Below are positions 60,174 through 60,533 of a DNA stretch of 64,000 bases, piece after piece; the stretch's first letter is position 1, and each line of letters begins with the position of its first letter. The translations under genes were made by a program, and so were the position numbers. The notes under the pieces were generated by a model. That model was given only the letters and a program-made list of their open reading frames with translations, was not told the origin of the DNA and made no database searches. The stretch is taken from positions 62,001 through 126,000 of the forward strand of contig JARYLI010000002.1 in the NCBI GenBank assembly GCA_029907715.1. Reading direction: 5' to 3'. Source of the DNA: Methanothrix sp. (GTDB lineage: Archaea > Halobacteriota > Methanosarcinia > Methanotrichales > Methanotrichaceae).

Positions 60174-60296
60174 CGGGCGTGGAGGGATTCGAACCCCCGG
60201 CTTACAGCTTAGGAGGCTGCCGCCATATCCTTGCTAGCTGAACAGCTTCTAGGGAACAGGGCCACCGGCCAGTGCTCCTGGCTAGGCCACACGCCC
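60174..60296 (-). tRNA. tRNA-Arg (anticodon CCU) with a D-loop insertion
   Basis: A 123-nt gene. Removing a 47-nt internal segment (60232-60278) leaves a perfect 76-nt tRNA: acceptor GGGCGTG/CACGCCC, T8, D-stem GCC/GGC with A14, G18G19 and A21, anticodon stem GCAGC/GCTGT around CTCCTAA (anticodon CCT), T-arm GGGGG TTCGAAT CCCTC and discriminator G as expected for arginine. CCA is not encoded. With the insertion kept the D-arm cannot form. No other tRNA-Arg is present in this window. Confidence 0.9.
60232..60278 (-). other. Candidate non-canonical tRNA intron (47 nt)
   Basis: The segment lies between D-loop positions 17a and 18 of tRNA-Arg(CCU), not at the usual 37/38 site. A relaxed bulge-helix-bulge can be drawn: exon CTAGC pairs with intron GCTAG, followed by a 3-nt bulge (CAG) and intron helix GAGCA/TGTTC, with a 3-nt bulge CAA at the 3' side. 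Cutting after the second bulge base on each side gives exactly the 76-nt tRNA. The outer helix is weak, so exact ends may shift by a base or two. Confidence 0.7.
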
Positions 60297-60533
60297 GTAC
60301 CGGTTACCCTACTGCCCATCTCGTATATCAAATTTTTCCCGCATCAGCAGGTCTATGGATTCCCGAAAGCTCTGACACTATACGCTCGGCATTGTACCGG
60401 ATTTCCGATCGTGAGCCTGAATCACTGAATGCTGCTGTAATCGACTTCGGTGAGCTGATGCTCCATGAGTCTGGACGGATTGATCGCTGCGGATTTCAAT
60501 GATATGCTCTTCCGGGTGGTTCGGCGAACCAGT

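Follow-up and report, generated by a model that had tools for sequence, protein, structure and literature searches.

A tRNA-Arg(CCU) gene of Methanothrix interrupted in the D-loop, probably by two introns that re-use one exon tetramer

Among archaea, reviews tie the position of tRNA introns to the type of splicing endonuclease, EndA, that removes them. In Euryarchaeota with EndA enzymes of the alpha4 or alpha2 type, introns are said to occur singly and to be canonical in position (PMC4090602). Enzymes of these types are described as cleaving only the canonical bulge-helix-bulge (BHB) motif (PMC4033280), and relaxed motifs are said to be removed efficiently only by those of the (alpha-beta)2 and epsilon2 types (PMC6379350). 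Some latitude has been reported at the canonical position itself: the EndA of A. fulgidus is able to excise a BHL intron from 37/38 when presented with the full-length pre-tRNA (PMC6379350). We describe here a gene from a methanogen, a Methanothrix species, organized along other lines: it has an intron in the D-loop that we consider real, non-canonical in position and probably double.

The gene lies on the minus strand at 60296–60174 of the window, by which we mean the whole 64,000-nucleotide stretch of DNA that was analysed. It is 123 nt long and specifies tRNA-Arg(CCU), but it is interrupted in the D-loop, between positions 17 and 17a rather than at the canonical 37/38. In this uncut form it is not called by ARAGORN in default mode, and the Rfam tRNA model (RF00005) returns a partial match (positions 8–63) of 28.8 bits, just below the cut-off of 29 bits. 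When the insert is deleted, a clean tRNA-Arg(CCU) cloverleaf appears, and ARAGORN then calls tRNA-Arg(cct). The initial annotation had proposed a tRNA-Arg(CCU) with a non-canonical BHB intron in the D-loop of a Methanothrix-type euryarchaeon, and in these respects it was right. A different ARAGORN reading, with a 52-nt intron in the anticodon stem, was rejected: it cuts inside exon sequence that is common to intronless relatives. Interrupted genes of this kind are easily reported as missing, since default ARAGORN is blind to them and RF00005 scores them near or below its threshold.

By sequence alone, removal of 47 nt (76-nt product) and removal of 48 nt (75-nt product) both yield a cloverleaf. 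The initial annotation settled on the shorter cut; we prefer the longer, by one base, for two reasons. Intronless orthologues of tRNA-Arg(CCU) are 75 nt in length, and in BHB introns each 3-nt bulge is cut between its second and third bases. With a slash marking the cut, this rule gives CC/A...CA/A here, and removes 48 nt, 60279–60232. The spliced product is then identical to that of G181, an intronless outgroup, from base 7 to base 44, a run of 38 nt that spans the junction. Exon 1 (60280–60296, minus strand, 17 nt) comprises the 5' strand of the acceptor stem, bases 8–9 and the 5' strand of the D-stem, as far as C17; it is unchanged across nine intron-bearing species, and G181 differs from it at base 6 alone. 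Exon 2 (60174–60231, minus strand, 58 nt) runs from A17a to the discriminator base, includes the anticodon CCU, and is unchanged within the genus. Upstream of the gene, an AT-rich stretch (GAAAAATTTGATATA; 60324–60338, minus strand) is kept in six species where the flank otherwise diverges, and is a probable promoter box A/TATA element.

The genome of the window species (G000; 2.0 Mb, 55 contigs, 99.9% complete) contains 43 Rfam tRNA matches, and only the interrupted gene among them has the anticodon CCU. The initial annotation had allowed for an intact second copy elsewhere; a search of the G000 assembly with the spliced sequence found none. Judging from 14 long ORFs of the window, in which AGG accounts for 321 of 612 arginine codons, this gene reads the commonest arginine codon, although tRNA-Arg(UCU) may share in the reading. 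In the same ORFs AGA accounts for a further 161 of the 612, and so strong a skew toward AGG and AGA is unusual at 54% G+C.

Is the gene functional? A decayed or unspliced pseudogene that yields no tRNA-Arg(CCU) might also be missed by ARAGORN and fall below the Rfam cut-off, as the uncut gene does, and AGG is readable in principle by tRNA-Arg(UCU). However, the exons are invariant in six species despite diverging flanks, no other Arg(CCU) gene was found, AGG is a frequent codon, and the BHB structure is maintained, with covariation. We find a pseudogene scarcely credible. The sequence is best explained, instead, by a working gene for tRNA-Arg(CCU) with BHB introns in its D-loop, and these would almost certainly be excised to leave the 75-nt tRNA.

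How the insert is likely to be excised depends on a tetramer. The exon sequence CUAG at tRNA positions 12–15 (60282–60285, minus strand) has two possible partners within the 48-nt intervening sequence (60232–60279, minus strand): CUAG no. 1 (60249–60252), next to which a 6-bp stem stacks on the helix, and CUAG no. 2 (60234–60237). The initial annotation had drawn one pairing, CTAGC with GCTAG. That pairing is real, but it is one of two, and the other, with CTAG at 60249–60252, is the one with the stacked stem.

Pairing through CUAG no. 1 defines predicted intron 1 (60247–60279, minus strand, 33 nt; AGGAGCA...CCCUAGAA), with cuts at CC/A and AA/G. Its motif in the window species has a 4-bp centre, 3-nt bulges and a 6-bp inner stem. 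The last, GGAGCA/UGUUCC, is the outer stem of a hairpin (60253–60278) whose 3' side is adjoined by CUAG no. 1, itself unchanged in nine species. The intron is homologous to the single introns of two relatives, G007 and G011, in which the exon CUAG pairs with an intron CUAG between the bulges CCA and AAA, with 6–7 uninterrupted pairs in the inner stem. In nine species out of nine, intron 1 has a central helix of 4 bp, flanked at the exon–intron borders by bulges of 3 nt. The inner stem next to it varies from 5 to 7 bp and covaries across genera at two pairs: pair 4 is G-U, G-C or A-U, and pair 6 is A-U, U-G or G-C, or, in G009, an unpaired C-A. The central CUAG itself provides no covariation beyond one G-U, in G009, because the tetramer of exon 1 is invariant. 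Among 20,000 dinucleotide shuffles, one equals the central BHB of intron 1 in the window species; the corresponding numbers are 1–26 across species, and 1–2 for G007 and G011.

What follows intron 1 is less emphatic. Predicted intron 2 (60232–60246, minus strand, 15 nt; GCUGUUCAGCUAGCA), with cuts at CC/G and CA/A, has a BHB that is complete only in the absence of intron 1. When intron 1 is removed, a 4-bp central helix with 3-nt bulges can be formed for intron 2 in seven species. The inner stem is 2–3 bp in the window genus; it is long, with a mismatch, in G009, where the counterpart of CUAG no. 2 is CUGG. Taken alone, this BHB is equalled by 670 of 20,000 shuffles in the window species and by 152 of 20,000 in G009. 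With a stem of 2–3 bp, and 3% of shuffles equalling it in the window genus, intron 2 has the poorer statistical backing of the two. For neither intron is the motif a strict hBHBh', since the outer exon helix (h) amounts to 0–1 bp in all cases, and unconstrained folds are 1–6 kcal/mol better than the BHB folds.

The initial annotation treated the insert as one intron, and it might indeed leave in one step, as a single 48-nt intron with a relaxed motif. The exon CUAG would then pair with CUAG no. 2, the cuts would fall at CC/A and CA/A, and the hairpin of intron 1 would lie, unstacked, inside the intron. The outer cut sites and the 75-nt product would be the same, the motif has its 3-nt bulges and a centre of 4 bp, and homodimeric enzymes are reported to be able to cut BHL-like motifs (PMC8707768). 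Against this, pairing through CUAG no. 2 in the uncut precursor leaves no inner-stem pairs stacked on the central helix in any of the two-segment species, compared with 5–6 through CUAG no. 1, and it folds 3–5 kcal/mol worse. Nor does it explain why CUAG no. 1 and AA/G are identical to those of the single introns in G007 and G011. These considerations make one-step removal possible but doubtful, and we favor two introns, of 33 and 15 nt, removed sequentially.

Sequential removal might proceed as follows. EndA would excise the introns, and joining the exons would fall to the archaeal tRNA ligase. In the first step, the exon CUAG would pair with CUAG no. 1 beside the stable hairpin, and the 33-nt intron would be cut at CC/A and AA/G. 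In the second, after ligation, the same exon CUAG would pair with CUAG no. 2, and the 15-nt intron would be cut at CC/G and CA/A, leaving the 75-nt tRNA-Arg(CCU). The order would follow from the sharing: because both predicted introns use the same exon CUAG, the second BHB could form fully only once intron 1 has gone. Expression, cleavage, ligation and the order of the two steps are all matters that we infer from the DNA.

Might the insert have been retained for a function of its own, as a guide RNA for example, so that excision serves that RNA rather than the tRNA? Between G000 and a relative with a single-contig genome, G005, whose insert is 49 nt long, 46 of 49 aligned columns of the insert are identical, which could be taken to hint at something of the kind. 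Such identity is ordinary, however. Several canonical introns of these two genomes—those of the Met, Thr, Ser(UGA), Gly and Arg(UCG) tRNA genes—are 100% identical, and so conservation of the insert implies no extra function. Between genera, moreover, both the length and the hairpin sequence vary freely. Neither a C box nor a D box was found in the nine introns, which are thus not box C/D guide introns of the tRNA-Trp type, and no ACA-like motif was found in the insert of the window species. An independent function for the insert seems to us very unlikely.

The interrupted Arg(CCU) gene has company. By ARAGORN, twelve other tRNA genes of G000 (loci L016–L042) have introns in the anticodon loop, which brings the interrupted genes to 13 out of about 44, a share well in excess of the roughly 8% given for Euryarchaeota (PMC4090602). 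In these genomes, introns as short as 13–16 nt are a common feature of the anticodon loop. The tRNA-Trp gene (L037:135-319, G000:C8) has a longer one, of about 109 nt, with C-box-like ATGATGA and CTGA motifs that match, as expected, the known archaeal box C/D guide intron. The 55-contig G000 assembly yielded no gene for tRNA-Ala(UGC) and none for tRNA-Ser(CGA); gaps in that assembly are likely, because G005 has 46 tRNA matches to its 43.

The D-loop insert is present in all six species of the window genus, where the exons are invariant, the insert varies at five columns and the flanks diverge more. Inserts at the same base occur in three further genera of the family, with lengths of 32 nt (G007), 40 nt (G011) and 60 nt (G009). 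In total the carriers number nine species in four genera, all at one exact site, and on this distribution we reject the recent gain that the initial annotation had suggested as one possibility. In the other seven genera of the family the gene is uninterrupted where found, a few genomes having no strong match. In a class-wide search of 171 genomes, most among the matches listed are full-length and uninterrupted. When named GTDB genomes were scanned for the pattern, every record returned had Methanothrix, Methanosaeta, Methanotrichaceae, Methanosarcinales or Euryarchaeota in its title. In an outgroup genus, the Arg(CCU) gene of G091 (about 89 nt; L177, G091:C58:88600-88780) contains a short insert right after the anticodon. 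This is apparently an ordinary 37/38 intron, in which case two independent interruptions of the Arg(CCU) tRNA, at different sites, have occurred in the class.

Carriers of the D-loop insert come in two forms. G007 and G011 have a single intron with a textbook central BHB, corresponding to intron 1 alone. The window genus and G009 have intron 1 (33 or 31 nt, ending CUAGAA), and then a second segment (15–16 or 29 nt, the longer with a large hairpin) that is missing from G007 and G011. The second segment ends in CUAG or CUGG plus two bases and, without intron 1, pairs with that same exon CUAG in a BHB of its own. A tree built from EndA alone leaves the branching unresolved, and the distribution of the introns then needs two changes. 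In a tree of EndA, GlyRS and GluRS combined, all intron carriers fall on one side of a weakly supported branch (60/83), and one change suffices; a single origin of intron 2 is found in 12% of the bootstrap trees. The simplest view is that intron 1, with its shared end motif CCCUAGAA, arose once, in an ancestor that the four genera share.

The genome of the window species yielded one EndA gene, a 375-aa ORF with two tRNA_int_endo (PF01974) domains. There are no further PF01974 matches in that genome, and hence no separate beta subunit; each of 25 genomes, likewise, gave a single EndA match. The ORF matches the NCBIfam splicing-endonuclease equivalogs, and the PDB chains closest to it are 1r0v, 2gjw and 3p1y, all of which we take to be A. 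fulgidus EndA. Chain 3p1y has an extra loop, presumably a grafted crenarchaeal one, and when the ORF is aligned to wild-type A. fulgidus EndA, no insertion is seen at the corresponding site. By these marks the enzyme is of the alpha-prime-2 homodimer type, not a heterotetramer, and it lacks the loop (CSL or ASL) that is credited with broad specificity. The initial annotation had named an endonuclease of broad substrate range as the alternative to a recent gain. The only EndA found does not look like one, though homodimers may be able to cut BHL-like motifs (PMC8707768), and, since the motif of the single-intron relatives combines a centre of 4 bp with bulges of 3 nt and a long stem on the inner side, a broad-range enzyme may be unnecessary.

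The D-loop gene thus departs from the rule of position, probably from the rule of one intron per gene and, less clearly, from the rule of motif. Its family appears to be a natural exception to the tie between endonuclease type and intron position (PMC4090602, PMC4033280), and suggests that the enzyme alone does not set the position, provided that a BHB can be built from the local exon sequence. We would go further, if tentatively. On balance, we think that an alpha-prime-2 EndA, a homodimer lacking the loop for broad specificity, removes, one after the other, two introns that are stacked at one D-loop site and re-use a single exon tetramer, and that the surviving versions of the gene, with no intron, one or two, form a record of stepwise gain outside the broad-specificity lineages. 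Because these versions coexist in one family, they offer a system in which to test how tRNA genes acquire introns, and how a second intron builds on a first. Our searches of the openly accessible literature turned up no description of a double D-loop intron; an annotation in GtRNAdb is possible.

One comparison is with the canonical 37/38 introns in twelve other genes of the same genome. These, too, are short, several of them only 14–16 nt, and the same enzyme presumably removes them, but they lie in the anticodon loop, one per gene. Methanopyrus kandleri and Methanothermobacter thermautotrophicus presumably fall outside the class that we searched. They are rare exceptions among euryarchaea in having tRNAs with more than one intron (PMC4033280), as the window species probably does; M. 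kandleri has an (alpha-beta)2 EndA (PMC4033280). The D-arm introns of Thermoproteales and thaumarchaea are similar in being BHB-type introns in the body of the tRNA whose removal leaves a clean mature molecule. In some of those genes the introns are so close together that one must exit before the BHB of the next can form (PMC8450103). Such introns are described mainly where the endonuclease is of the (alpha-beta)2 or epsilon2 type (PMC4090602, PMC6379350), whereas the enzyme here is alpha-prime-2, and the two predicted introns share a single site and a single exon tetramer. The tRNA-Thr(GGU) of Caldiarchaeum, finally, is known in one-intron and two-intron forms of the same gene within one population, which bears on stepwise gain (PMC3293823). 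There, the introns occupy separate sites, 24/25 and 45/46 (PMC3293823); in the Methanothrix gene they would be consecutive, at a single site.
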